Source of the DNA: Ascidia mentula
Lineage: Eukaryota; Chordata; Ascidiacea; Phlebobranchia; Ascidiidae
NCBI GenBank assembly: GCA_947561715.1
Contig: OX387202.1
Span: 3,795,001-3,859,000 of the forward strand
Direction of reading: 5' to 3'
DNA: 64,000 bases
Below are positions 1-58,883 of the stretch, piece after piece. Within the stretch, counting starts at the first letter, position 1. Every line of letters starts with the position of its first letter. The notes under the pieces were generated by a model. The model worked only from the letters and a program-made list of their open reading frames with translations, searched no databases and was not told the DNA's origin. The translations under genes and the position numbers were made by a program.

Positions 1-950
1 CTGCTGTTGCTGCTGTTGCTGCTGTTGCTGCTGTTGCTGCTGTTGCTGCTGTTGCTGCTGTTGCTGCTGTTGCTGCTGTTGCTGCTGTTGCTGCTGTTGC
101 TGCTGTTGCTGCTGTTGCTGCTGTTGCTGCTGTTGCTGCTGTTGCTGCTGTTGCTGCTGTTGCTGCTGTTGCTGCTGTTGCTGCTGTTGCTGCTGTTGCT
201 GCTGTTGCTGCTGTTGCTGCTGTTGCTGCTGTTGCTGCTGTTGCTGCTGTTGCTGCTGTTGCTGCTGTTGCTGCTGTTGCTGCTGTTGCTGCTGTTGCTG
301 CTGTTGCTGCTGTTGCTGCTGTTGCTGCTGTTGCTGCTGTTGCTGCTGTTGCTGCTGTTGCTGCTGTTGCTGCTGTTGCTGCTGTTGCTGCTGTTGCTGC
401 TGTTGCTGCTGTTGCTGCTGTTGCTGCTGTTGCTGCTGTTGCTGCTGTTGCTGCTGTTGCTGCTGTTGCTGCTGTTGCTGCTGTTGCTGCTGTTGCTGCT
501 GTTGCTGCTGTTGCTGCTGTTGCTGCTGTTGCTGCTGTTGCTGCTGTTGCTGCTGTTGCTGCTGTTGCTGCTGTTGCTGCTGTTGCTGCTGTTGCTGCTG
601 TTGCTGCTGTTGCTGCTGTGGCTGCTGTGGCTGCTGTTGCTGCTGTTGCTGCTGTTGCTGCTGTTGCTGCTGTGGCTGCTGTGGCTGCTGTTGCTGCTGT
701 TGCTGCTGTTGCTGCTGTTGCTGCTGTTGCTGCTGTGGCTGTTGTGGCTGTTGTGGCTGTTGTGGCTGTTGTGGCTGTTGTGGCTGTTGTGGCTGTTGTG
801 GCTGTTGTCGCTGTTGTCGCTGTTGTCGCTGTTGTCGCTGTTGTCGCTGTTGTCGCTGTTGTCGCTGTTGTCGCTGTTGTCGCTGTTGTCGCTGTTGTCG
901 CTGTTGTTGCTGTTGTTGCTGTTGTTGCTCTTGTTGCTGTGTGGTTTTGG
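1..950. repeat. Long 9-bp tandem repeat (CTGCTGTTG)n
   Basis: From 1 to about 617 the sequence is an almost pure 9-bp repeat. From there to 950 come variant units with TGG and then TCG triplets. On the minus strand every unit is in register with the reading frame of exon 7 of the claudin-like gene: the pure unit is Gln-Gln-Gln, TGG gives Pro (12 seen) and TCG gives Arg (11 seen). The gradient from variant units near the exon start to pure units at the window edge suggests recent expansion. The true length is unknown because the tract reaches the edge. Confidence 0.95.
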
Positions 951-3777
951 GTAGAAGTTGTTGTCTTTCGCCATCTGCAGTTAATTGGACTATATTTTGG
1001 AATATAGCCTAGCATTATGTTGACTAATAACATTGTTGGTTATGTGTTAGATATTTAAAAACTTTGTTTGCTTATACGAATGTCTGATCACTTTATATCA
1101 TTTTAACTGTTATATTACCTTCGGATAGGAGTTTAGCTTTCTTTGCACAAATACAAGTACACAAACTTGCCACCAATGCAGCAATAGCTTTGTTATAACT
1201 AATCCCCCTGTACCATTCTTGTCCAAGACCTCTCATTGGCTCTGAACTCCCAAACACAATCACAATAACAAGAGAAGTTAGACCTGCAAAACAGATAATG
1301 TTGTTGCTTAGAAATTGTGAAAATATTTTTATTTTCCAATGCCTAAATAGGATGAAGGAACATTATCCCCCTATTTTATGGCAATTAGTCAATTAAAAAC
1401 CTTGTATTACTTTGCTATATACGTTCCATCCAGAAACTGACGACACTGGTCAATACAACAAACCACAAAAGCAACACGATAGTCTGGTGGGCGCATGGAT
1501 ACTGTCTTTTAGCGGCGACCTGTATCCAGTGTGAAATTTTGTTCGTTTTTTTTTCAGTACGAGTTACGTACAACACCCTATGTGTTGACGATGTTTGTCC
1601 TTGTGCAAGAAAACGTATTCGCCTATGAAAACATTTTCGCCTAAGAAAACATAGAACAAACACACGCTAAAAGACTTGGCCACCTTAGGATATGGGACAA
1701 CTGTAATTGATGTCCCAGGCCATGCAGGCATAATGGTGGTTGGAACAGATAGATTTTGTGTATAAGCTGCAGACAGATGGCCACTGTTTCGACCTAAAAG
1801 GTCTCATCAGTGCAGCTGGTGTGACTATCAGACGACTTTGCTGACCAAACGGCCAAGCAAAGACTTCCACTTTGTGGTGACTATACAGTCACCGATATCC
1901 GTTGGGCAGCAAACAAGGTGGAAACACTACGGCCAAGCAAGCTCAACCAATAGTGCTGTCAGGCCCCGTGTCACAATAATCATATGATAAGCAATGTGGA
2001 GCCAATAATATATTTTGGTCAAGATACCACCGCACAACTTGCTAAATGAACTTCAACAGATAAGACTCCGAAGACAAGAAAGTGGCTGGGCCAGCTTGAT
2101 TGCAAGGCCTTAACTCGTATTTAAGTGAATCGTATGATCAAAACTCGATATTGCTACAGAAAGTAAATGAATGAACAAGAAGTTCTTCTTAGAATGCATT
2201 CTGCGTTACTTTGGCTGGTCGAAAACGACTGATAAAAAATGTTAACAAAGTATAAAAGTAAGTTCCTGCAGCCCTGCTTGAATTAATGCTTTTGACCCAT
2301 CTTTTTTTCGAAAAGAAATTTAGATTTAGATTCATAAACACACCTACATATGATGGCACTGGTCTAAGTTTAGATGGCCATATGTTCTCAGATCGCAAAG
2401 AGTCCAGCAAAGACTAATGAAATCACCAGCAGGTAAATAGACATTTCGAATGGTTGCACACTAATTTGACTTACTTGTTGTAGTAGCAGCGCCGATCAAA
2501 ATTTTTCTAGGCATTTTAGTTTTTCTCCGCAAGTAAACCAAGTAACAAATTATGGAAACACTTTGGGAAATGATGCCAAGAAACGAAAAAGCAGCTGTAG
2601 CTTTCCTAGCAGGATTATCCATGTCTAAAAACAGTTATCCTAGCTGCAATTGTTTGTAGTCGATTGCTGTAATAATATCATTGCAGGCTTTCAAATTACC
2701 AAGGGGTATTGGTTGACAAGTACCCTCCTTGCAGTAAGCAAATAATCCAAACAATTCAGAGGATGAGTTGCGTAGAAGCCAATAGGGTTGAGTCAAAGCC
2801 ATCATTGACAGAATAAACGAGGTCGTTAGAAATATTCCAGTGAAAATTAAGGGCAGTTCTCCCACACCTAAAATGAACACAATTTCTTGACATACGAGGA
2901 ACTGTCGTTGCATCCAAACATTATTGCCTTGCTGGGGGGATTGTGTTATAAACGACATTTCGCCAACATGCATGTGTATGCAGTATACAAGAGATACTCG
3001 TCAACGATTCTATTTGAATAAGACACTGATGATGCTTTTAAAGCGAAATATTTTTGTCCAATTCATTAAGACTGACAGATTTTAGCCTGAAACGAAACTT
3101 TTTTAGATAGTAGATATATTCGTGTGTATGTGACAATTAAAATTGTCTTACTTAATTGTCCTCTATCAGGAGCACGTGAGGATGCAATCACACTAAAGAC
3201 ACTCGCTACGAATGCAAAAACAACTTGAATATAACTTGATCCACGTCTCCAATCTTCAAAAACCCCAGATAATCCAAGATGACTCCCGAAGATTGCGACA
3301 GTAAGCAGATAAAATATACCTAAAGTTAAAGCACATCATATGCCCATGGTATAACAATAAAAAGAATCCTGGGAGCCATTGCTGGATATCTTACTTGTCA
3401 TTGTTGTCAAGGAAACTGTTATACATCCACCTTCATTCATACGAATAACGTAGCCAAAGTAGATAATATCTGAAATACTTTGAAAAAAGATTCCAATCAA
3501 TAAACAGATTATTACCGACATCCTTCCTGTTCCAAAGATGTCTAAACACAGTCCATATTTAATAAAGAAATGTCAAACGTACTTAATAAAAGTAAAAACC
3601 ACAAAAAATACCGACAGTAGGTGTCTTGACACATGTATTGTTTTCACATGTAAGAAATAACCCGATGTAATTTCCCGTCGTAGGATCCTCAGCCCAATGT
3701 GGAGAAACGACACTCGTCAACGCCAAGACCAACGAAGCCGTGAGAAGCGTTCCAACACACACCCTTTCAAACACCAT
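1..3777 (-). CDS. Double claudin-like (8-TM) protein with polyglutamine tail, partial at left edge
   Basis: Seven exons on the minus strand: 3777-3612, 3541-3395, 3319-3152, 2867-2700, 2624-2475, 1283-1119 and 974 to beyond 1. All introns are GT-AG and in phase 1. The start is the ATG at 3777, which opens directly into the first hydrophobic segment. Exons 1-3 encode one four-helix claudin/PMP22-like module and exons 4-6 a second. Each module has the first-loop pattern of a Trp after TM1 (SPHW, QPYW), then GLF, then two Cys five apart (C44 and C49 in module 1). Exon 7 continues in frame as DGERQQLLPKTTQQQEQQ and then about 300 codons of mostly Gln, with RQQ and PQQ repeats near its start. The paralogue at 56213-58883 has the same exon plan, with exon lengths 147, 168 and 150 matching exactly in exons 2, 4 and 5, and ends in a RING finger. 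Whether a RING follows here lies outside the window. Function is inferred to be a plasma or endomembrane protein; its partners are unknown. Confidence 0.8.
1763..1945. mobile_element. Degraded MITE in intron 6 of the claudin-like gene
   Basis: This segment shares the core GCTGCAGACAG, CACTGTTTCGACCT and GTCTCATCAGTGCAGCTG with the MITE copies at 3848-4033 and 30079-30258, but its right terminal repeat is not clear. It lies in the longest intron (1284-2474) of the minus-strand claudin-like gene. Boundaries are approximate. Confidence 0.4.
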
Positions 3778-16710: not shown

Positions 16711-19700
16711 TTAACGCTGTCTAGTTTCCAAAACTTTTCCTGTTGCAAGATAACTTGAAAGTTTTGTTCAGACTACGCATACCAACCATATTCAGGAAAA
16801 AAATCGGTGTATCAAAGTAGATAAATTGTTGAAAAGAATTATATTGAACAAACACATTACAAACCTTTTGATGAACTGGACGTCGATTGTTGAGTGTTTG
16901 TTTTGTTAACTGAGCCTCCTGCTGTGATGATGTGTGGTTCAACTAATGTACAGCGAGGAAATGTAGTACCTGGATATTGCAGTGAGTGTTAGAAAATATA
17001 TAAACTTAAGCCTACTAACACATGCATACACATACTTATTACTGTAAGAAGTAATAAAACAATTAATGTGAAATCATGGTATATTACTTATGTTTTCCAT
17101 ACAATGCAGTGAGAAAAGCGAAGGTTTAAGTAGAGATAGATATAAAAATTTTGTAATTAAATAATACTAAAATTCTATAATAGTTAATAAATAATACCAT
17201 ACAAACCATTTGATGAACTGGACGTCGATTGTTGAGTGTTTGTTTTGTTAACTGAGCCTCCTGCTGTGATGATGTGTGGTTCAACTAATGTACAGCGAGG
17301 AAATGTAGTACCTGGATATTGCAGTGAGTGTTAGAAAATATATAAACTTAAGCCTACTAACACATGCATACACATACTTATTACTGTAAGAAGTAATAAA
17401 ACAATTAATGTGAAATCATGGTATATTACTTATGTTTTCCATACAATGCAGTGAGAAAAGCGAAGGTTTAAGTAGAGATAGATATAAAAATTTTGTAATT
17501 AAATAATACTAAAATTCTATAATAGTTAATAAATAATACCATACAAACCATTTGATGAACTGGACGTCGATTGTTGAGTGTTTGTTTTGTTAACTGAGCC
17601 TCCTGCTGTGATGATGTGTGGTTCAACTAATGTACAGCGAGGAAATGTAGTACCTGGATATTGCAGTGAGTGTTAGAAAATATATAAACTTAAGCCTACT
17701 AACACATGCATACACATACTATTACTGTAAGAAGGAATAAAACAATTAATGTGAAATCATGGTATTGTAGCGGCCTCTCTAACTACGTTTGCGCTCCTAC
17801 AGCGAACCGGACAAATTGCCTTTTTTCTTTTACTCTCGTCCCTCGTGGTTTATTCGCCCATTGTGTCATTCCATTAGTTTGTACCTCGAATAAACACCTC
17901 GCTACATTTGGTGACCCCGAGCGTGCAAAAACGTTTTTTTGCATTATGAATGAAACCGCAAACTCAGAGAACGCTGTAGCCATCAAGCTACCTTTGTTTT
18001 GGACAGCTCAGCCACGAGTTTGGTTTCGGCAAGCCGAGGCGCAGTTCGCTCTGAAAAACATTACAGGCGATCAGACGAAGTACTATTATGTCGTTTCGGC
18101 CTTAGATCAGGACACAGCAAAGCGTCTACTCAACCTGCTGGACAATCCGCCCAATGATGACAAGTACGAGTCAATTAAAGCACGATTGATTGACACCTTT
18201 GGTCTTACGCGTTCGCAGAGGGCCAGGCAGCTACTACACATGCCCCCTTTGGGCGATAGAATGCCATCCGCTTTAATGGATGACATGCTGGCTTTGCTTG
18301 GTGATGAAAAGGAATGTTTTGTTTTTCAAGAACTGTTCTTGGAGCGCTTGCCAGAATATGTACGGACACGACTGATAGGAGAGGAGTTTCGTGATTCGCG
18401 ACTCTTAGCACGTAAAGCTGATGCGATATGGACAGGAAGTCAGCCGTCTACGGATTTCGCACTTTCCAACGTGCGTCGCAGCAAACCTTCCAAGTCTTCA
18501 TCAGGTTTGCCACAGATAATGTCCGATCCGAAGTCGCTTTGTTTTTATCATCGTCGTTTCGGCAAAGATGCGATAAAGTGCCGCCCCCCTTGTGCACTGC
18601 AGGGAAACGACGAGGCCGGCCATCATTAGTTGCTACGATGGCCGGCGCAGTTAGTAGTCTTTTCTTTGTGTGGGATAGCTCAGCGGGTCGTAATTTTCTT
18701 GTTGACACCGGCGCCGAGAAAAGCGTCATACCTCCCACGGGACTAGAGCGCCGCACCAATCCTCCTGGAAAGGCTCTAGTCGCTGCTAATGGTACTCACA
18801 TCCGAACGTACGGTTCACGTCTAGTCACCATGAATTTTCCTCCCGGCAAATTTCAATGGAAATTTGTTCTGGCCGAAGTTTCCCGGCCGTTACTCGGCGC
18901 TGATTTCCTGCGGGCAAATTCCCTTCTGGTTGACCTCAAGCACCGACGCCTAATCAACGCCGAAACCTTCTCCAGCAGTAAACTGGGCAAAGCAGCGCAA
19001 TCGGCTCCCCACCTTAACGCCATTTCCGCAGGCACATCGGTCTATGCTCGAATGTTGGCTGAATTTCCAGGGATAGCTTCTCCCCATTTCTCGCAGTCGC
19101 TTCCTAAGCATGGAGTTCAGCATTTCATCCCCACCAGCGGACCACCCGTGCACTCTCGCGCTCGACGACTTCCTCCCGAAAAGCTCGCCCGCGCTAAGAA
19201 GGAATTTCACAACATGCTACAACTGGGAATTATTAGACGCTCATCCAGTCCATGGGCTTCGCCCCTGCACATGGTACCAAAGTCGTCCGGTGGGTGGCGC
19301 CCATGCGGCGATTACCGCCGTCTTAACTCTGCTACCCAGCCTGATCGTTACGCTATCCCCCACATCCAAGATTTTTCGGCTCGTTTGGCCGGATGTCGAG
19401 TTTTCTCCAAAATTGACCTTGTTCGCGGCTATCACCAAGTTCCTGTGGCACCGGATGATATTGCGAAAACGGCGGTTATCACGCCTTTTGGCCTTTTCGA
19501 ATTTCTTCGCATGCCCTTTGGTTTGAAAAACGCGGCACAAGCCTTTCAGCGACTTATGGACACGGTATGTCAATCCTTGGATTTTGTGTTCGTCTACCTA
19601 GATGACATACTCGTCGCAAGCAAGTCCCTCTCCGAGCACTACGACCATTTAAAACGCCTTTTTCAGCAGCTTTCAGATCATGGCCTCGTCATTAACCTCG

Positions 19701-22700
19701 GCAAATGCCAGTTTGGAGTATCCAAAATTGATTTTCTGGGACATCGGGTTGACACCAACGGTGCACGACCTCTTCCCAACAAGGTTGAAGCCATTCAGAA
19801 TTTCCCTCGCCCTACTACTATCAAAGGACTCCAAGAATTCGCAGGTATGGTAAACTTTTACCATCGTTTTATTCCTGGGGCTGCACGCATAATGTCACCA
19901 ATCTACGAATCACTTTCGGGCAATCCTACAAAGTTGATTTGGAGTGACAAGCTAAATTCGGCTTTCTCAGAGGGAAAAGTCGCCCTAGCCCGTGCCACAC
20001 TGTTGCACCACCCTTTACCCGATGCGCCGACCGCTGTAACTACCGATGCGTCACAGCATTCCATTGGAGCTGTCCTCCAACAATTTATTGACAATGCCTG
20101 GCGCCCACTGGCCTTTTTCAGCAAACGTTTACGACCACCCGAGCAGAAATACAGTGCCTTTGACAGAGAACTACTCGCCTTGCACCTTGCCATTCGTCAC
20201 TTTCGATATTTTCTGGAAGGTCGCGTGTTTACCGCTTACACGGATCACAAACCTTTGACTTTTGCTTTTACTAAAGTGTCAGCTCCATGGTCATCGCGAC
20301 AACAATGTCATTTAACCGCGATTTCAGAGTTTACCACAGACGTGCGACACATCGCAGGCAAGCAAAACCACGTTGCCGACGCTCTCTCGCGCGGTTCCAT
20401 TGATGCTGTTCGACTACCTCTGGATTTGGATTATTCGTCATTGGCAGCCGCTCAGTCCTCTCCCGAAGTTCAAGCGTATCGCACGGCTGTCACTAACCTT
20501 AAACTAGAGGACATACAGCTCGATCAATCCGGGACCACAATCCTCTGTGACGTCTCGTCCGGCTCACCCCGTCCAGTTGTTCCAACATCATGGCAACGCA
20601 AAATTTTTGACATAATACATGGTCTATCGCATCCGTCGATACGGTCTACACGCAAACTTGTCGCATCCAAGTTTGTTTGGCACGGCTTACGCCGCCAGGT
20701 CACCCTTTGGGCGAGACAGTGCATCCACTGTCAAAGGGCAAAAGTCCAGCGCCACACTCGTGCGCCTCTGGCGAACTACCCACCCTGTCGTGCACGTTTT
20801 CAACAGATCAACGTCGATATCGTCGGTCCTCTCGCACCTTCACAGGGAAACAGGTACCTTTTTACCATTGTTGACCGTTTTACCAGATGGCCGGAAGCAA
20901 TTCCTATGCCAGATGCAACCACCCTGACGTGTGCACGGGCCTTCGCGTTCCATTGGGTTTCTCGTTTCGGGATTCCTTCCGACCTCACATCGGATCGCGG
21001 CCCCCAGTTTACCTCGGAGTTATGGACGGTTTTCACCCAACTTCTGGGAATCCAACTACACCGAACAACTGCGTTTCACCCTCAGGCTAATGGCCTTGCG
21101 GAGCGATTTCATCGGCATATGAAGAGCGCCCTAATGGCACGGCTAGCAGGCCCCAACTGGGTAGACCAGCTCCCGTGGGTTATGCTTGGCATCCGGACTG
21201 CTCCCAAAGAAGACCTGCAGGCATCATCGGCCGAACTTGTTTACGGTTCTACCATAACGGTACCCGGCGATTTCTTCCGTTTCGGCCAATCCTTTCCTAC
21301 CCCTCAAGATGTCATTCCATCGTTGAGGGACACAGTGCGTCAACTGGTGCCGACATCGATGTCACGCCATGGTTCCGTTCGCACAATGCTCCCACAAGCG
21401 TTAAGCACGACCCCGTACGTTTTTGTACGCAAAGATGGACACCGACCCCCGCTTACGCCGCCATACGATGGCCCATATCGCGTCCTTGATCGCAATAGCA
21501 AGACTTTTACGCTTGCCATTGGTGGACACAATCAGGTCGTTTCCATCGACCGTGTGAAGCCTGCACATGTCGACCTCACACAACCGGTACAGGTGGCTGT
21601 GCCTCCTCGCCGCGGTCGACCCCCGACATCAACGCACCACCCACCGCCATCCGACCCGGGGCTGTCCGAGCCGGTTTCGCACACTTCGACTCCGCCTTTT
21701 CTGGTTCCACCTGAACCCTCGCATACATCACTGGGCCCACCGGAGCACCAGCCCAACTTTTCACATTCAGGCAGACACACGCGCACGCGTGGCAACATTC
21801 GTATTCCACTTCGTTTTCAGTGTTGATATATGTCCGTTTCTGGAGGGGGGTCATGTAGCGGCCTCTCTAACTACGTTTGCGCTCCTACAGCGAACCGGAC
21901 AAATTGCCTTTTTTCTTTTACTCTCGTCCCTCGTGGTTTATTCGCCCATTGTGTCATTCCATTAGTTTGTACCTCGAATAAACACCTCGCTACAGTATAT
22001 TACTTATGTTTTCCATACAATGCAGTGAGAAAAGCGAAGGTTTAAGTAGAGATAGATATAAAAATTTTGTAATTAAATAATACTAAAATTCTATAATAGT
22101 TAATAAATAATACCATACAAACCATTTGATGAACTGGACGTCGATTGTTGAGTGTTTGTTTTGTTAACTGAGCCTCCTGCTGTGATGATGTGTGGTTCAA
22201 CTAATGTACAGCGAGGAAATGTAGTACCTGGATATTGCAGTGAGTGTTAGAAAATATATAAACTTAAGCCCACTAACACATGCATACACATACTATTACT
22301 GTAAGAAGGAATAAAACAATTAATGTGAAATCATGGTATATTACTTATGTTTTCCATACAATGCAGTGAGAAAAGCGAAGGTTTAAGTAGAGATAGATAT
22401 AAAAATTTTGTAATTAAATAATACTAAAATTCTATAATAGTTAATAAATAATACCATACAAACCATTTGATGAACTGGACGTCGATTGTTGAGTGTTTGT
22501 TTTGTTAACTGAGCCTCCTGCTGTGATGACGTGTGGTTCAACTAATGTACAGCGAGGAAATGTAGTACCTGGATATTGCAGTGAGTGTTAGAAAATATAT
22601 AAACTTAAGCCTACTAACACATGCATACACATACTATTACTGTAAGAAGGAATAAAACAATTAATGTGAAATCATGGTATATTACTTATGTTTTCCATAC

Positions 22701-25700
22701 AATGCAGTGAGAAAAGCGAAGGTCTAAGTAGAGATAAATATAAAAATTTTGTAATTAAATAATACTAAAATTCTATAATAGTTAATAAATAATACCATAC
22801 AAACCATTTGATGAACTGGACGTCGATTGTTGAGTGTTTGTTTTGTTAACTGAGCCTCCTGCTGTGATGATGTGTGGTTCAACTAATGTACAGCGAGGAA
22901 ATGTAGTACCTGGATATTGCAGTGAGTGTTAGAAAATATATAAACTTAAGCCTACTAACACATGCATACACATACTATTACTGTAAGAAGGAATAAAACA
23001 ATTAATGTGAAATCATGGTATATTACTTATGTTTTCCATACAATGCAGTGAGAAAAGCGAAGGTTTAAGTAGAGATAAATATAAAAATTTTGTAATTAAA
23101 TAATACTAAAATTCTATAATAGTTAATAAATAATACCATACAAACCATTTGATGAACTGGACGTCGATTGTTGAGTGTTTGTTTTGTTAACTGAGCCTCC
23201 TGCTGTGATGATGTGTGGTTCAACTAATGTACAGCGAGGAAATGTAGTACCTGGATATTGCAGTGAGTGTTAGAAAATATATAAACTTAAGCCCACTAAC
23301 ACATGCATACACATACTATTACTGTAAGAAGTAATAAAACAATTAATGTGAAATCATGGTATATTACTCATGTTTTCCATACAATGCAGTGAGAAAAGCG
23401 AAGGTTTAAGTAGAGATAGAAAAAAAATTTTGTAATTAAATAATACTAAAATTCTATAATAGTTAATAAATAATACCATACAAACCATTTGATGAACTGG
23501 ACGTCGATTGTTGAGTGTTTGTTTTGTTAACTGAGCCTCCTGCTGTGATGATGTGTGGTTCAACTAATGTACAGCGAGGAAATGTAGTACCTGGATATTG
23601 CAGTGAGTGTTAGAAAATATATAAACTTAAGCCTACTAACACATGCATACACATACTATTACTGTAAGAAGGAATAAAACAATTAATGTGAAATCATGGT
23701 ATATTACTTATGTTTTCCATACAATGCAGTGAGAAAAGCGAAGGTTTAAGTAGAGATAGATATAAAAATTTTGTAATTAAATAATACTAAAATTCTATAA
23801 TAGTTAATAAATAATACCATACAAACCATTTGATGAACTGGACGTCGATTGTTGAGTTTTTGTTTTGTTAACTGAGCCTCCTGCTGTGATGATGTGTGGT
23901 TCAACTAATGTACAGCGAGGAAATGTAGTACCTGGATATTGCAGTGAGTGTTAGAAAATATATAAACTTAAGCCTACTAACACATGCATACACATACTAT
24001 TACTGTAAGAAGTAATAAAACAATTAATGTGAAATCATGGTATATTACTTATGTTTTCCATACAATGCAGTGAGAAAAGCGAAGGTTTAAGTAGAGATAG
24101 ATATAAAAATTTTGTAATTAAATAATACTAAAATTCTATAATAGTTAATAAATAATACCATACAAACCATTTGATGAACTGGACGTCGATTGTTGAGTGT
24201 TTGTTTTGTTAACTGAGCCTCCTGCTGTGATGATGTGTGGTTCAACTAATGTACAGCGAGGAAATGTAGTACCTGGATATTGCAGTGAGTGTTAGAAAAT
24301 ATATAAACTTAAGCCCACTAACACATGCATACACATACTATTACTGTAAGAAGTAATAAAACAATTAATGTGAAATCATGGTATATTACTTATGTTTTCC
24401 ATACAATGCAGTGAGAAAAGCGAAGGTTTAAGTAGAGATAGATATAAAAATTTTGTAATTAAATAATACTAAAATTCTATAATAGTTAATAAATAATACC
24501 ATACAAACCATTTGATGAACTGGACGTCGATTGTTGAGTGTTTGTTTTGTTAACTGAGCCTCCTGCTGTGATGATGTGTGGTTCAACTAATGTACAGCGA
24601 GGAAATGTAGTACCTGGATATTGCAGTGAGTGTTAGAAAATATATAAACTTAAGCCTACTAACACATGCATACACATACTATTACTGTAAGAAGGAATAA
24701 AACAATTAATGTGAAATCATGGTATATTACTTATGTTTTCCATACAATGCAGTGAGAAAAGCGAAGGTTTAAGTAGAGATAGATATAAAAATTTTGTAAT
24801 TAAATAATACTAAAATTCTATAATAGTTAATAAATAATACCATACAAACCTTTTGATGAACTGGACGTCGATTGTTGAGTGTTTGTTTTGTTAACTGAGC
24901 CTCCTGCTGTGATGATGTGTGATTCTTGCAATGTACAGCCAGCAAGTAAAGTACCTGAATATTGCAGTGAATGTAAGAGACTTACTGTTTTAAACTTAAG
25001 ACATGCTTTGCCATACTTGCTTGACCTAAAGGACTTTGTGTCGCATCAATTTTTGACAAAAACTTTTGCAGAATGTTCGCCTGTCAATAAACATATAATG
25101 CATCATAAGGAATATACAATTTTTATTACATCTTACTTGTATCTGTTGATCGCTTGCTGTTTCTACTTTTACACCAAAATTTGATTCACGTTGTTCTTCG
25201 CCAAATTCAAGCTTTAAATTAACTATTTCATAACCAGTTGTAGCAAATTGCAAAACAACTTCACGTTGCACTGCATTGTCAGAGTAAATATTCTTTAAGT
25301 CTATTTTTAGGATTTCATTCTCAGGAAATCTAACTCGACCACTTTGACTTGTGAGAGTCAGTGTTGCTTCGTTCTGATGAGATCTGACAAAACATATTAC
25401 AGTGTGAATTCTGTTAAATTGTAAAGATCACTCGCAATTACATAAAGCGTAATTTTTTTGACACTACTAATTTTTTCAACCAGTTGCTCAACCTGAATTT
25501 GAAAATTTATAAAAACTCCATAGTTGCCTTCATTTGTCGTTTTATTGATGGATTGGAACGGTAAATTTCCTGCTTAGGAAAGAGTTAAGGATGAAGAATG
25601 TCTGCTTCATGTCAACAATGGCTCGAGGAAATTTTAAATTCACAAAGACATGATACCTAACCCTGCCATCCACAATATCGTGGGATATTTGCTAAAATAT

Positions 25701-33968: not shown

Positions 33969-34867
33969 TTGTCGCCGCACAACACATGTATATACTAAAA
34001 AAGAAAAAAAAAAAAAACAATTATATCTTTGTAAATGTCTCCTCGTCTAAACAATCGTGTCCCGTGATTGCTTTGTTATATGTATATATGTTACAATCGA
34101 ACAACGGAAATTTGTGTAAATATACATATATATATTTTGGTGTACTATAAAATATATTTGTGAGTGTACTTTGTACGTCGCTCTCTTCAACAGAACCAAC
34201 AACTTGCGTTCATATATGGACCGCAAGTACCAGACAAGCGGGGGGGTATTATGTCGCCGCACAACACATGTATATACTAAAAAAGGCCCAAAGCGTATAA
34301 CTATATTATGACCGAGAGTTAAAACCAAAGTCATTGTAATCACGCGTTCAACGCATGTCCAAGTTGTGATGTCCAATAAAACGACATGGGAAAAAAGAAG
34401 AACTCATTTCCGGTTTAGGTCAATTCCTGACCGGACAATTTAATAGGAAAAACCTGCCGAGCTGGTGGCAGGTGAAAAAATTGTAGCCGGTAGAAGCAGC
34501 CACATTATAGATGTGTTATAAACCATGTAATTTGGGCAATAAAGTCAAATAGGTAACTTAGGCAACCAAACTAACTATGTAAATCAAGTTAAAATAATTA
34601 CAGACATTTCTTTGGCAAATAATAAATAAAGGTTGATTTAAACACAAGTACTTCTTTCGCAAATGATAAATAAAGCTAAAATAAACATAACTACTTTTAG
34701 TTATTCTGAAAACAAAATCTACCTATACATAAATAACCTATTAGGGCACTTAGTTAATTAAGCTATATAAATAACTGACGCAATCGACCAATGAATTATG
34801 AATCTGACGCTCTTCTGGTGGAGAACAACAAATATACACCTTTTGTTTAAAAAAGATTGTATTTTCT

Positions 34868-34903
34868 GACGTTTCGCCTGTACGTACGACTAGGCTTCTT
34901 CAG
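34868..34903 (-). ncRNA. Hammerhead-type ribozyme motif, unit 1
   Basis: Core CTGAAGA, stem II GCCT...AGGC, GAAA, then ACGTC with the cleavage-site C last. Stem I can form between TTCT before the core and AGAA after it. ACGT is a self-complementary minimal helix III, as described for Penelope-like hammerheads that act as dimers. Confidence 0.7.
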
Positions 34904-35225
34904 AGAATAAAACAAACACAGTAGCGAAGCGAACCAACAGGGCAAAGAAATTGAGCGTCGAAAAAACAAAAGGGCGTAACAGCTAAAACACAGCGGGACA
35001 TCTATGATTGAACCGTAGGTGACTGTACTCCTTTTCAATCGTGCAAATTTCTTTGATGAACCTTCGAGCCGCTAAGAGCGTCGATTTACTGTTTTCTCTT
35101 CTGATAATACTGAAAACTGAAAATAGGCTTTGACCACCTGGTATCATAATGAATTATAAATCTGACGCTCTTCTGGTGGAGAACAACAAATATACACCTT
35201 TTGTTTAAAAAAGATTGTATTTTCT

Positions 35226-35261
35226 GACGTTTCGCCTGTACGTACGACTAGGCTTCTTCAG
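35226..35261 (-). ncRNA. Hammerhead-type ribozyme motif, unit 2
   Basis: Same 36-nt core as at 34868-34903, 358 bp away. Confidence 0.7.
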
Positions 35262-35583
35262 AGAATAAAACAAACACAGTAGCGAAGCGAACCAACAGGG
35301 CAAAGAAATTGAGCGACGAAAAAACAAAAGGGCGTAACAGCTAAAACACAGCGGGACATCTATGATTGAACCGTAGGTGACTGTACTCCTTTTCAATCGT
35401 GCAAATTTCTTTGATGAACCTTCGAGCCGCTAAGAGCGTCGATTTACTGTTTTCTCTTCTGATAATACTGAAAACTGAAAATAGGCTTTGACCACCTGGT
35501 ATCATAATGAATTATGAATCTGACGCTCTTCTGGTGGAGAACAACAAATATACACCTTTTGTTTAGAAAAGATTGTATTTTCT

Positions 35584-35619
35584 GACGTTTCGCCTGTACG
35601 TACGACTAGGCTTCTTCAG
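35584..35619 (-). ncRNA. Hammerhead-type ribozyme motif, unit 3
   Basis: Same 36-nt core as the neighbouring units. Confidence 0.7.
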
Positions 35620-35934
35620 AGAATAAAACAAACACAGTAGCGAAGCGAACCAACAGGGCAAAGAAATTGAGCGACGAAAAAACAAAAGGGCGTAACAGCT
35701 AAAACACAGCGGGACATCTATGATTGAACCGTAGGTGACTGTACTCCTTTTCAATCGTGCAAATTTCTTTGATGAACCTTCGAGCCGCTAAGAGCGTCGA
35801 TTTACTGTTTTCTCTTCTGATAATACTGAAAATAGGCTTTGACCACCTGGTATCATAATGAATTATGAATCTGACGCTCTTCTGGTGGAGAACAACAAAT
35901 ATACACCTTTTGTTTAGAAAAGATTGTATTTTCT

Positions 35935-35970
35935 GACGTTTCGCCTGTACGTACGACTAGGCTTCTTCAG
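35935..35970 (-). ncRNA. Hammerhead-type ribozyme motif, unit 4
   Basis: Same 36-nt core. Its spacing from unit 3 is 351 bp because that unit is slightly shorter. Confidence 0.7.
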
Positions 35971-36293
35971 AGAATAAAACAAACACAGTAGCGAAGCGAA
36001 CCAACAGGGCAAAGAAATTGAGCGACGAAAAAACAAAAGGGCGTAACAGCTAAAACACAGCGGGACATCTATGATTGAACCGTAGGTGACTGTACTCCTT
36101 TTCAATCGTGCAAATTTCTTTGATGAACCTTCGAGCCGCTAAGAGCGTCGATTTACTGTTTTATCTTCTGATAATACTGAAAACTGAAAATAGGCTTTGA
36201 CCACCTGGTATCATAATGAATTATGAATCTGACGCTCTTCTGGTGGAGAACAACAAATATACACCTTTTGTTTAAAAAAGATTGTATTTTCTG

Positions 36294-36377
36294 AAGCCTT
36301 GGATATGATGATGTTGGTGTCGTTGGGAAGCAACTAAGAGTTTGAGGAACGACACCAACATCATCATATCCAAGGCT
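36294..36377. repeat. Hairpin at the inversion junction of the Penelope-like cassette
   Basis: AGCCTTGGATATGATGATGT on the left is the inverted copy of ACATCATCATATCCAAGGCT on the right, about 30 bp each around a 23-bp spacer. It joins the inverted terminal units to the 5' end of the reverse transcriptase frame, so the start of that frame is duplicated in inverted form. Confidence 0.85.
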
Positions 36378-37526: not shown

Positions 37527-37784
37527 ACGTTGCCATGAAACCGGTATGCACTTTAGAAAACCTATTTTCAGTTTTCAGTATTATCAGAAGAGAAAACAGT
37601 AAATCGACGCTCTTAGCGGCTCGAAGGTTCATCAAAGAAATTTGCACGATTGAAAAGGAGTACAGTCACCTACGGTTCAATCATAGATGTCCCGCTGTGT
37701 TTTAGCTGTTACGCCCTTTTGTTTTTTCGTCGCTCAATTTCTTTGCCCTGTTGGTTCGCTTCGCTACTGTGTTTGTTTTATTCT

Positions 37785-37820
37785 CTGAAGAAGCCTAGTC
37801 GTACGTACAGGCGAAACGTC
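37785..37820 (+). ncRNA. Hammerhead-type ribozyme motif, right unit 1
   Basis: CTGAAGA, GCCT...AGGC, GAAA, ACGTC, identical to the left-array cores. Confidence 0.7.
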
Positions 37821-38142
37821 AGAAAATACAATCTTTTCTAAACAAAAGGTGTATATTTGTTGTTCTCCACCAGAAGAGCGTCAGATTCATAATTCATTAT
37901 GATACCAGGTGGTCAAAGCCTATTTTCAGTTTTCAGTATTATCAGAAGAGAAAACAGTAAATCGACGCTCTTAGCGGCTCGAAGGTTCATCAAAGAAATT
38001 TGCACGATTGAAAAGGAGTACAGTCACCTACGGTTCAATCATAGATGTCCCGCTGTGTTTTAGCTGTTACGCCCTTTTGTTTTTTCGTCGCTCAATTTCT
38101 TTGCCCTGTTGGTTCGCTTCGCTACTGTGTTTGTTTTATTCT

Positions 38143-38178
38143 CTGAAGAAGCCTAGTCGTACGTACAGGCGAAACGTC
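38143..38178 (+). ncRNA. Hammerhead-type ribozyme motif, right unit 2
   Basis: Same core, 358 bp downstream of the previous one. Confidence 0.7.
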
Positions 38179-38500
38179 AGAAAATACAATCTTTTTTAAA
38201 CAAAAGGTGTATATTTGTTGTTCTCCACCAGAAGAGCGTCAGATTCATAATTCATTATGATACCAGGTGGTCAAAGCCTATTTTCAGTTTTCAGTATTAT
38301 CAGAAGAGAAAACAGTAAATCGACGCTCTTAGCGGCTCGAAGGTTCATCAAAGAAATTTGCACGATTGAAAAGGAGTACAGTCACCTACGGTTCAATCAT
38401 AGATGTCCCGCTGTGTTTTAGCTGTTACGCCCTTTTGTTTTTTCGTCGCTCAATTTCTTTGCCCTGTTGGTTCGCTTCGCTACTGTGTTTGTTTTATTCT

Positions 38501-38536
38501 CTGAAGAAGCCTAGTCGTACGTACAGGCGAAACGTC
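38501..38536 (+). ncRNA. Hammerhead-type ribozyme motif, right unit 3
   Basis: Same core, 358 bp downstream of the previous one. Confidence 0.7.
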
Positions 38537-39395
38537 AGAAAATACAATCTTTTTTAAACAAAAGGTGTATATTTGTTGTTCTCCACCAGAAGAGCGTCAG
38601 ATTCATAATTCATTATGATACCAGGTGGTCAAAGCCTAAATTCAGTTTTCAGTAATCGACCAAATCGGTCAACTTCAGGTTGCATTCAAGTTGCGCAACA
38701 ACTCCAAATAAGGTATCAATACGTGTGGCCAACCGCAGACTATATAAGCAGAGCGACTAGCGCCTGCAAAATCAGTGTGTTTTAACTGTTGCTGTGTAAG
38801 GGTCTAGGTTGTTGGTTCTGCTCTAGTACACTGTATAGGAGTTACAATTATACTATACTGTACTTGGATTTATTCGTTGGATTTATTCGTTGGATTTATC
38901 AATAAATGGATTTATGAACAACTTTGGACTGGCTTGAAGCTTGGTGGATGTATGTGTTTAGTCGGGAGTTAGAATATTTAGAAGACGCACAGACTTGTGT
39001 AAAGGAGTTCTTTAACTCCAACAGTAAACCTTGAGATAGAGAAGGCAAGTTGCCTACGAGGCCGAGTTGCCAACGAGACTCAGTCGGATCCGTAAGGTGC
39101 GAGGCCGATACGCAGTCGTACCCCACGGTCACCCAGCGGGGACATACCCCGACAACGGGTAAACCGACAACTGGTGCCCAGAAGTTTGGCGAGTTCACTG
39201 CACAAGTCAGTTTCATCAAAACTTCTTCGGATATTATTCCGACTATCTCCGGATTTAGCAGCCAAATTTCCCGCCGAACGGGTTAATTCACACCCGTTCC
39301 AGTTCCAGCAGCCCACCCAGCACAGCAACAGCAAGCAGTCAACTGCACCAGTCATTAACAAACAAGAAGACAACTTCCGGCAACTGTTTGGATTA

Positions 39396-53589: not shown

Positions 53590-54110
53590 ATTGAACGATT
53601 ACAAAATTCCAGATTATTTCACCAGTTCGCGGTGCAGAAACAATTTGTGAACGAACAGTTGCACCGTTACAAACTAGACCATATTGCAGTAACTAAAGAA
53701 TTGTTTCACGGAACTACCAAAAAAGCTTTAGAAAGCATTTGCAAAAATGGGTTCGACAGAAGTTACAGCGGTTGCAACGGTAATATGCAATTAAACAATT
53801 AAACAGCTATATGGCAAAAGCTTAATTTTTTTCAGGGACTCTCTATGGAAAATTAGTTTACTTCTCAACTACAGCAAATTACTCGGATAAATACGCTGAT
53901 ATGGATAAAAATGCCATTCGTAGGATGTTTTTTTCTGAAGTAATTACCGGCTATTACTGCCAAGGCAATGGAGAAATGCGATACCTTTCCACGGCCAGTT
54001 GGGGTGCACCCTATAACAGTGCAGTGGACAACAAAGCAACACCGGGTATATATGTCGTGTTTAACGATTTCAATGCGTATCCTTCCTACATTATTTCATA
54101 CAAAGACTAA
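53590..54110 (+). CDS. PARP catalytic domain, mono-ADP-ribosyltransferase type, 3' exons
   Basis: Two exons, 53590-53779 and 53836-54110, joined by a 56-bp GT-AG intron, give 154 residues to a TAA stop. The start IERLQNSRLFHQFAVQKQ matches the usual lead-in of PARP10/14-type catalytic domains. The NAD-binding His is in LFHGTT (residue 40 of this fragment), the second triad Tyr is in VYFSTTANYS (Tyr72), and the position that is Glu in PARP1 is Ile135 in PGIYVVFND. H-Y-I predicts transfer of single ADP-ribose units. The domain's first third and any macro or WWE domains are not visible. An AATAAA lies about 40 bp after the stop. A second PARP lies inverted at 63362-64000. Confidence 0.85.
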
Positions 54111-56212: not shown

Positions 56213-58883
56213 ATGGATACGACAAGACGTTTAGTATGGATTGGATCTTTTCTTACTGTGTCATTAGTCCTGGCGATGACGAGCGCCATTTCTCCACACT
56301 GGGCCGAAGATAGACCAACGGGAAATTCTTTTGGATTATTTCGTTTCTGCAAAAATAACATCTGTACATGGAGTGGAGCCGGTATGAACAAGATACGAAA
56401 AGTCAATTGTTATAATTTGCCAAATATTTTTATTTCCTTTTTAGGCGTGTTAAATTCTGCAAGACGAGCTACAGCTGGCATGCTAATACTGGGCATAATG
56501 TCACATATTGTGTTGTTTATTATTTTTTTTGGGAGCATATGGAATGGTGCTGATATAGATCAAAAGATGTGTGCTTGGAGTTCAATAGTTTGTCAGTATA
56601 CTGTATTCTGTTAATATGTTGGATTTTTTTAATTAATCATTATAATAGTGATTGTATTGACCGAGTTACTGTGTTTTCTAGTTGTTTTTTACTTGATTGC
56701 TGTTTCTATATTTGGAAGTCCAGTTGGTTTATCAGGAGCACTTGAAGGCTGGAATTTCGGATCAAGTTACATTGAACTCGTTATTGCGCTTATTGCAATA
56801 TTTCTCTCCTGTTGTGAATTATGGCGCAACAATCCAATTGAACTCGGTATGAATAACTGACATTCTAATTTTGTAGATTTAAGTATTGTTTCATTACCGA
56901 CGTCTAGGGAAAGAACAAATTATTTAAGAATGAATATTGGTGTAAGTTACCTAATGACATAAAGATAGCATTTTGGTGAATCGCACAGATAAGATTTCTA
57001 TACAATCGATATAACATTTAAACTAAATTAATCCACAAAAATACTTGCTAAACATATCTATGCTCTAGATGGTTCAGAAAAAAGTTTGGTTCTAACTGGA
57101 ATTAGCCTGATCACTTCGTTTGTAATGGCGATAATCGGATTGTCTCTTCCATACTTGGCTCTCCACAAATCGACACCTCAAACACTTGGACTCTTCACCT
57201 ACTGCAACCAAAGCAATTGCAGGGGAATTCCGAACAGTGAGAATGTTGGAGAGTTTATAGTTGTTTTAGTGTATATTTGTTATTCACGAAGGTTGATTCG
57301 TGTCTGTAGATTGTAGAATGTTGACGAGTTTTATCGGTTGTTTTCACTTTGCCAGTCTATGATAACCAAATTCCTTTATTCTTTAACACAACTATGATAC
57401 TGTGCTGCTGTTGTGGACAGACATGCTATAATTTAAATAGAACTGATCTTATAGGTACCACGTTAATTTATGACAGAATATCAATTCTATTTAAATAACA
57501 ACCATGTTATTCACGAACCAACATCAACTAATGATTATTAAGGATAAATAGTACTTAAAATTATTGTCAGACTTGAAAAGCTCTGCGAGGGAGGCAACTG
57601 CTGCCTTGCTATTAATAGGCATATTTTTTCAATTGGTTTCAATCTTAAGCCTCATTGTTTATCTCTGGAAATATGGTGCAACTTCACGCAGGATTATGTG
57701 GCTCTCCATATTCATAACAGGTATTTCTAATACAAATTTGCCAACTCGGTTTGATTGAAATTTATGCATTGTATGCCATTCACCTAAAAATATGTGTTGC
57801 AAAACACTAATTCTGCATTCTACACTAATTCGTAATACAAAATGCTGCTACCTTGATTGGCTGCTAAAATCATTACTTTAGATAACAGTGTTTCTCCAAG
57901 GCTTTTGTAGTCACGAAACAATTCATGTTTAGCTGCGATTTTAATTAGTATATCGTTGTTTTTAGGTGTTTTCTACCTTATCGCGGTAGCCGTGTTTGGA
58001 AGTGCGAAAGGAATAGGAGATCTCGGTCACGACTGGAAATGGGGGACAAGTTACAACGTTGTTATCGTCGCCCTTGTTGCAAGTTTGTGTTCTTTGGCAG
58101 ATGCAAGCAACATAACAACGGAAGGTAAGGTTTACTTTATTTATATTTACAAACGTGGAGATTCACTTGTTGTCTTCATCTGTATTTGTTGAGTAAAAGT
58201 GCAAAATTATATGAAAATATCAACTCAATACAAATATCCAAGATCATAAATTGCGAAAATATCTGACAATTTCTCATTTCATATTTCAGACCTGTTTTCA
58301 CTTTTCCACTCCGTTACCTGTCCGTTAAATGCACGTTGTTGCATCAACTGTAATCATCAAGAGCTTGAAGAGGAAGAAGAAAACGCAGAACCAGAACCAG
58401 TTGAAGAAACTCGTTATCAAGCTGGTATGTTGCAAAATATATTGTTAACGTTGTTGAGTTTTCTACGTCTAAGTTTGCAATATAATGAACATTATAAAAT
58501 GCTCAATTAAAGAATACACAGTGAATGCATTACATCCTTAAGGAGACTAGAATTGTGCGAGAGGAAAAAGTTATAGGTAATTGCATTAAAACAAAATGGA
58601 ACTAAATGAAGGCCAAAAGGAACCAGCAACACTTCGTATGTCAAGCACTCTCTCGCGGTTTTATGTTTTAGACCACTGTTACTATTTTTTAGATACTCGA
58701 GTGCAAAAGAGAGATGAAAGTGATGCTCAGGACGGCAACTGTAGTGTTTGTTGGGATAGACCAGCAAACATAGCATTTGTACCCTGTGGACACCGATGTT
58801 GTTGCATGGAGTGTGCCAGCATGGTGAATAACTGTCCTGTTTGTCGGAATGAAGTGTATGACCGAATGCGTATCTATACATAG
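56213..58883 (+). CDS. Double claudin-like 8-TM protein with C-terminal RING finger
   Basis: Eight exons: 56213-56381, 56445-56591, 56682-56846, 57069-57236, 57571-57720, 57966-58124, 58290-58424, 58693-58883. All introns are GT-AG and phase 1. The sum is 1284 nt, 427 residues plus stop. Module 1 (1-160): TM1 about 7-27, loop W30, GLF41-43, C46 and C51, TM2 66-88, TM3 98-118, TM4 136-152. Module 2 (161-319) repeats this plan with GLF201-203, C206 and C211, but Leu replaces the loop Trp. Exon 7 is Cys-rich then acidic. Exon 8 holds a C3HC4 RING: C381, C384, C396, H398, C402, C405, C412, C415, of the IAP/MUL1/neuralized spacing. An even helix number puts both ends in the cytosol, so the RING could act as an E3 ligase tethered to a membrane (inference). 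The exon 2/3 junction has alternative sites; the one chosen makes VFYLIAVSIFGS align with module 2. I know no protein with this architecture. Confidence 0.85.

Follow-up and report, generated by a model that had tools for sequence, protein, structure and literature searches.

A predicted Ascidia mentula membrane protein with two claudin-superfamily modules and a RING finger, and its relatives with PARP tails

Claudin-superfamily proteins, RING ligases, and ADP-ribosyltransferases at the membrane

MOSMO (Atthog), a four-helix protein of the claudin superfamily that works with a RING E3 ligase at the membrane, is the described system closest to the gene considered here. According to three reports (PMC8513608, PMC13161197, and PMC5792066), MOSMO helps MEGF8 to reach the surface, MEGF8 recruits the RING ligase MGRN1, and MGRN1 ubiquitinates SMO. 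However, MOSMO has one module and its RING acts in trans (MGRN1 via MEGF8), whereas the gene R1, which was found in the analyzed window (a stretch of 64,000 nucleotides of Ascidia mentula DNA), would combine two modules and an IAP-type RING in one chain. The first loop of claudin-superfamily proteins has the pattern W...GLW...C...C, with an Arg before helix 2. LHFPL, PMP22/EMP, and the claudins share four helices and the W...GL...C...C...R loop with the family to which R1 belongs, whereas R1 is distinguished by GLF in place of GLW, by the C-x4-C spacing, by tandem modules, and by a putative enzymatic tail.

With cIAP1/2, XIAP, ML-IAP, and MYLIP, R1 has in common a C-terminal C3HC4 RING and a final aromatic residue, which in such RINGs plays a role in E2-ubiquitin activation; in contrast to these ligases, R1 contains no BIR or FERM domain, and its RING is carried by eight helices. 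RNF26, MUL1, and AMFR are polytopic and combine membrane helices with a C-terminal or cytosolic RING, although their helices are not known to be of the claudin type. The tails of most siblings of R1 match PARP15 and PARP14 of the PARP10/12/14/15 mono-ADP-ribosyltransferases. A recent review names PARP16 as the one transmembrane mono-ART among the PARPs; PARP16 has a single helix, whereas the siblings are predicted to be polytopic. In a survey, a clade-3 PARP of a sponge is reported to carry an N-terminal transmembrane domain, and the account given of it mentions no claudin-type membrane part. No published claudin-RING or claudin-PARP protein was found in searches of open-licence papers, in agreement with the earlier note on this DNA, the author of which knew of no protein with both a duplicated claudin fold and a RING.

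Exon structure and twin copy of R1

The contig that contains the window (C70) corresponds to chromosome 6 of the A. mentula assembly kaAscMent1.1 (PMC11109543). C70 positions refer to the contig and may deviate slightly from those of the public record; window positions refer to the analyzed stretch. R1 occupies positions 56213–58883 of the plus strand of the window and consists of eight exons (Table 1) separated by seven introns, all of which are GT-AG and in phase 1, with an open frame of 427 aa. The eight exons, the exclusively phase-1 introns, and the 427 residues proposed in the earlier note were thus borne out, the length depending on exon 3, which has two usable acceptors (56649 and 56682). 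Acceptor 56649, which adds 11 aa (438 aa), was dropped, as acceptor 56682 has a better pyrimidine tract and matches the splice position of the family. Hydropathy analysis predicted eight helices at a threshold of 1.5, the same count as in sibling D, and this agrees with the two four-helix modules described in the note; the GLF-x2-C-x4-C motif that it had placed in each first loop was likewise present in both modules, and the acidic linker and the C3HC4 RING were recovered, the linker in exon 7.

Table 1. Positions of the R1 exons, of neighboring genes, and of the claudin-module loci
Feature	Position	Strand	Content
R1 exon 1	window 56213..56381	+	start Met, helix 1, disulfide-type loop (GLF-x2-C-x4-C), module 1
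R1 exon 2	window 56445..56591	+	conserved Arg and helix 2
R1 exon 3	window 56682..56846	+	module 1 helices 3 and 4
R1 exon 4	window 57069..57236	+	helix 5 and GLF-x2-C-x4-C loop, module 2
R1 exon 5	window 57571..57720	+	helix 6
R1 exon 6	window 57966..58124	+	end of helix 7 and helix 8
R1 exon 7	window 58290..58424	+	Cys-rich, then acidic linker; without Met
R1 exon 8	window 58693..58883	+	C-terminal IAP-type C3HC4 RING and stop TAG
PARP catalytic exon, N-terminal half	window 53590..53781	+	LFHGT; separate neighbor gene upstream of R1; profile P at C70:3848590
PARP catalytic exon, C-terminal half	window 53829..54107	+	same upstream neighbor; a close copy ahead of R2 is over the Pfam PARP cut-off
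Gene F, six claudin-module exons	window 1119..3777	-	3612-3777, 3395-3541, 3152-3319, 2700-2867, 2475-2624, 1119-1283
Claudin loci, C70 (7)	3746131+, 3757452-, 3774100+ (D), 3786668+ (R2), 3798777- (F), 3851213+ (R1), 3861781- (G)		
Claudin loci, C1:4.35-4.42 Mb (7)	4353721-, 4359543-, 4374248-, 4377205+, 4383940-, 4390995-, 4411668+		
Claudin loci elsewhere (3)	C1:6523123-; C2: 7192433-, 7218557-		
Loci with PARP tail, C70	3746131, 3757452, 3774100 (D), 3798777 (F), 3861781 (G)		
Loci with PARP tail, C1 and C2 (7/12)	4374248, 4383940, 4390995, 4411668, 6523123, 7192433, 7218557		no W found in 6523123

The RING matched Pfam zf-C3HC4_3 with 49.1 bits (cut-off 27; score obtained with the 438-aa version of R1), and exon 8 contains eight zinc ligands in the arrangement C-x2-C-x11-C-x-H-x3-C-x2-C-x6-C-x2-C. 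Its matches to IAP RINGs included cIAP1, cIAP2, and ML-IAP (E = 2.2 × 10−12, 3.1 × 10−12, and 8.4 × 10−12, respectively), with XIAP also aligned, and the penultimate Tyr of R1 was aligned with the C-terminal Phe of ML-IAP; the match to MGRN1 reached an E-value of only 0.0042. A single frame that combines two claudin-superfamily modules with a RING is, as judged from sequence, the best-supported reading of R1, and we consider this architecture, with its predicted splicing, to be very probable.

A twin copy, R2 (C70:3786668–3789252), is located 64.5 kb upstream of R1 and has the same eight exons, splice sites, and frame, with 394 of 427 residues identical (395/428 including the stop; 92%). The exons of the two copies differ by 54 substitutions (4.2%) and 0 indels in 1284 bases, whereas 153 substitutions (11.9%) and 16 indels separate the introns over 1285 aligned bases, and this contrast in indels supports coding. 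The first 2 kb upstream of R1 and R2 are 97% identical, which indicates a recent duplication, so that the agreement between the copies lends no independent support to the architecture. Self-comparison paired the duplicated blocks 3783928–3789393 and 3848406–3854021 of C70 (92% and 88% in two pieces); unmatched sequence between the blocks makes tandem duplication likelier than a haplotype artefact.

Claudin-module loci and their tails

The family was searched for in one genome (195,842,439 bases, 79 contigs) with three exon profiles, namely, A (helix 1 and loop), B (helix 2), and C (helices 3–4). At least 17 loci with at least one A-B-C set were found on three chromosomes (Table 1), a number that is a lower bound because the scan covered regions picked by a protein search of the genome; some of the matches were weak, with B exons down to 13.5 bits. 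A second module was present in 12 of the 17 loci (with no second B exon in 4377205), and the remaining five contained a single module. A weak fragment (C1:4355737) and a lone exon 1 (C70:3869740) were left out of this count; the latter, designated H (C70:3869740–3869889), is 88% identical to R1, with no other claudin exons found nearby. The aligned-residue identity with R1 in the claudin part was 56% for D, 44% for C1b, and 39% for F, and the dN/dS between R1 and D in this part was 0.44. Sibling D (C70:3774100–3778402), which lies 16–21 kb to the left of the window, has two claudin modules, a Q/E-rich coil, and a PARP14/15-like domain in one predicted frame. The PARP exons of gene F are located beyond the window, at C70:3791.9–3791.4 kb. 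On the minus strand, a 9-bp CTGCTGTTG repeat (104 copies, window 1–939) separates the claudin exons of this gene from its PARP exons and translates into a very long stretch rich in Gln. Sibling G (C70:3861781–3858360, partly to the right of the window) is a near copy of F with a broken helix-2 exon in the second module, and judging from this sequence it may be a pseudogene.

The earlier note saw a single gene; the RING fusion that it proposed is supported, and the family context adds that, in 12 of the 17 related loci, exons P and Q of a PARP10/12/14/15-type ADP-ribosyltransferase are found on the same strand after the claudin exons, in the position of the RING. Exon W usually precedes P and Q, and the distance to the last C exon is 0.25 to 3.8 kb. 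A WWE domain was rejected for exon W, which had no Pfam WWE match; PARP15 structures align across it, and it is therefore taken as the start of the PARP14/15-type catalytic region. Neither tail was found in three loci (4353721, 4359543, and 4377205). The six-frame search of the whole genome gave 77 PARP-domain matches, many of which were clustered on C1, C70, and C73, which is a large PARP expansion; from these 77 matches, we estimated the chance of a same-strand PARP within 4 kb at about 0.0008 per locus. The 12 PARP-tailed loci, spread over three chromosomes, are paralogues and not 12 independent events. Among the 17 loci, the RING tail occurs only in R1 and R2, downstream of which no PARP exon (W, P, or Q) was found, and neither the RING exon search of the family regions nor the genome-wide PF13920 list contained another RING behind a claudin locus.

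The joins were modeled in 11 of the PARP-tailed loci (4411668 was left out). In nine of them, the best link that joins the tail to the last claudin exon was in phase 1; in C1b it was in phase 0, and G had none. The link P>Q was in phase 1 in 11 of 11 loci, and W>P was in phase 0 in all nine loci with this link, C1a_4390 having none. The links within the claudin part were in phase 1 almost throughout (A>B, 19/20; B>C, 20/20; C>A, 8/9), the exceptions being C2b, with no C>A link, and G, with its second A>B link in phase 0; G also had no coil link. Spliced open models were obtained for D (694 aa), Cg (702 aa), C1a_4374 (533 aa), C1a_4383 (538 aa), 3746131 (444 aa), and C2a (346 aa, 5′ end open). 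In a Pfam scan of five spliced siblings, all five passed PARP (50 bits in D and 54.9 bits in Cg; cut-off 26.7), D and Cg passed both PMP22_Claudin and PARP, and three were below the claudin cut-offs. The tail of D matched PARP15 (E = 3 × 10−25) and PARP14 (about 2 × 10−24) and has Glu opposite a Leu of the PARP15 sequence, a position at which Ile, Leu, Lys, or Gln occurs in other siblings.

Alternative readings, proposed action, and origin of the RING tail

The claudin and RING exons could belong to two neighboring genes, for example, in a trans-spliced operon, so that the fusion would be only apparent: such operons occur in ascidians, and read-through past exon 6 reaches a stop in intron 6, so that exon 6 could be the last exon of a protein with claudin modules only. 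However, neither R1 nor R2 has a Met between residue 259, a Met in the seventh-helix region, and the RING; thus, the RING exon is not a separate ORF started in exons 6–8, and exons 7–8, with no Met of their own, would yield no standalone protein unless there were further exons. Moreover, exon 7 is in phase 1 on both sides and has good splice sites, and exons 7 and 8 contain 0 indels between the two copies, so that two separate genes appear very unlikely; the same reading is less firmly excluded for the PARP siblings, because some of them have a Met near the join. R1 could also be a decaying or non-functional duplicate, that is, a former claudin-PARP gene whose enzyme part was lost and which picked up a RING exon by chance. 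The dN/dS between R1 and R2, which is based on small counts, was 0.68 overall and 0.55 in module 2 and was above 1 in module 1 (1.46) and in the linker (1.27), which is in line with decay, as are the broken second-module exon of G and the lone exon 1 of H. Against this, R1 and R2 are fully open, have no exonic indel, and keep all eight zinc ligands intact, and the dN/dS of the RING was 0.27 (on 12 changes only); accidental capture by a decaying gene is accordingly rated as unlikely.

A further question is whether the modules fall outside the claudin superfamily, in a different small family of four-helix proteins whose loop is similar. In the alignment of 19 modules, G39, L40, C44, C49, and R61 were invariant and W28 was found in at least 90%, so that the pattern W...GL-x3-C-x4-C...R is kept, with F or I, not W, as the third letter of GLW and, in module 2 of R1, with L at the place of the first W. 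Per-module Pfam scores were low: module 1 of R1 scanned alone had no claudin match, module 2 was below the cut-off (E = 0.088–0.11), and an exon-wise genome search with PF00822 gave seven matches, six of them over the cut-off and none in this family, which is expected if each exon carries only a third of the domain and which counts against easy recognition of the modules. PMP22_Claudin nevertheless matched 12 of the 19 modules at E-values up to 1 (best, 4 × 10−9), one of ten further modules scanned singly passed its cut-off (29.1 bits), and siblings D and Cg exceeded it with 31.1 and 37.8 bits, respectively (cut-off 26.7), D also exceeding that of L_HMGIC_fpl (29.1 versus 25.2 bits). A claudin-superfamily match, which the earlier note had proposed to look for in Pfam, was thus obtained through these siblings and not with the R1 modules alone. 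The search of PDB with the family profile (25 matches, E up to 10) gave MOSMO (9.7 × 10−5) and LHFPL5 (0.011), with the unrelated chains SWEET2b (0.023) and ribosomal eL32 (0.03–0.2) close to LHFPL and no classical claudin among the 25; other weak Pfam families also matched single members. However, the MOSMO match covers the whole module, including the W, GL, and Cys positions, and an origin outside the superfamily seems highly improbable. The claudin-like character assigned to the modules in the note therefore holds at the level of the superfamily, through the Pfam passes of the siblings, the nearest solved relatives being MOSMO and LHFPL and not classical claudins; by sequence, the modules are best filed under the claudin superfamily and not among claudins proper. 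With MOSMO as the best PDB match, and given the MOSMO–MEGF8–MGRN1 chain that leads to the ubiquitination of SMO, R1 might be a single-chain counterpart of this system that down-regulates a Smoothened-like or another receptor. The IAP-like RING, with its weak match to MGRN1, argues against this, as do the presence of PARP and not RING in most siblings and the result with Pfam Atthog (MOSMO), which matched 1 of 19 modules below the cut-off (E = 0.012) and neither R1 module. We regard such a counterpart as quite unlikely and make no claim for an action of R1 on SMO.

On balance, we favor the view that R1 is an eight-helix membrane-anchored RING E3 ligase, the claudin part of which picks the partner and the tail of which was swapped within a claudin-PARP family. 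The membrane and extracellular part would be made up of the two tandem modules. With an even number of helices, both ends lie on the same side, and claudin homology makes this the cytosolic side, so both ends of R1 are predicted to be cytosolic, with the IAP-type RING beside the membrane; the loop charges of R1 do not settle the orientation. The claudin modules most likely bind a membrane partner on the same or a neighboring cell, and the RING, probably dimeric, would ubiquitinate this partner or its neighbors and drive them into endocytosis or degradation. If this is true, R1 would unite in one natural chain the joint action of MOSMO, MEGF8, and MGRN1 and would be of use in testing how a ligase is steered by a claudin-type protein. 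The claudin-PARP siblings would be polytopic membrane ADP-ribosyltransferases, beside PARP16, the only transmembrane mono-ART of the PARP family named in the review, and one membrane part with two enzyme tails at one intron phase would be a clear case of effector exchange.

The family appears to be lineage-expanded, with a PARP14/15-like ADP-ribosyltransferase as its usual tail; R1 and R2 would have replaced this tail with a RING at the phase-1 intron that follows their last claudin exon. Most simply, a D-like ancestor would have lost its PARP tail and acquired exons 7–8 at this intron; that the swap went from PARP to RING is inferred from PARP being the majority tail. The source of the RING was sought among 44 RING stretches (40 of the 103 genome matches and four stretches of the C70 cluster, R1 and R2 among them). 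After R2, the closest to R1 were C70:3479072 (54%) and C70:3764466 (49%), followed by copies on C52 (41%), with C70:3744022 in seventh place. The tree of RING sequences (38 of 43 rows) did not resolve the placement of R1 and R2 (support 57/75), and the phase of the neighbors' RING exons was ambiguous, so capture from a neighbor on the same chromosome is only suggestive. More broadly, the A. mentula family may consist of tandem-claudin membrane proteins with interchangeable cytosolic tails, PARP14/15-like in most members and an IAP-type RING in two, attached at one phase-1 join, and may form a modular sensor system writing ADP-ribose or ubiquitin, perhaps in immune or self recognition; the chances of this reading as a whole seem to us evenly balanced.

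Near the claudin-PARP cluster, ORFs with WWE domains precede IAP-like RING exons (C70:3742688–3744174, 3763170–3764645, and 3476997–3479221). Three of four WWE-type ORFs ahead of these RING exons (3744022, 3764466, and 3479072) passed Pfam WWE, and these loci may encode WWE-RING ligases. Other repeats in the window include a tandem array with a 341–342-bp unit at 16858–17765 and 21995–24978, the related copies of which are 98–99% alike, and tandem arrays with a 358-bp period at 34790–36294 (4.2 copies) and 37557–38654 (3.1 copies).
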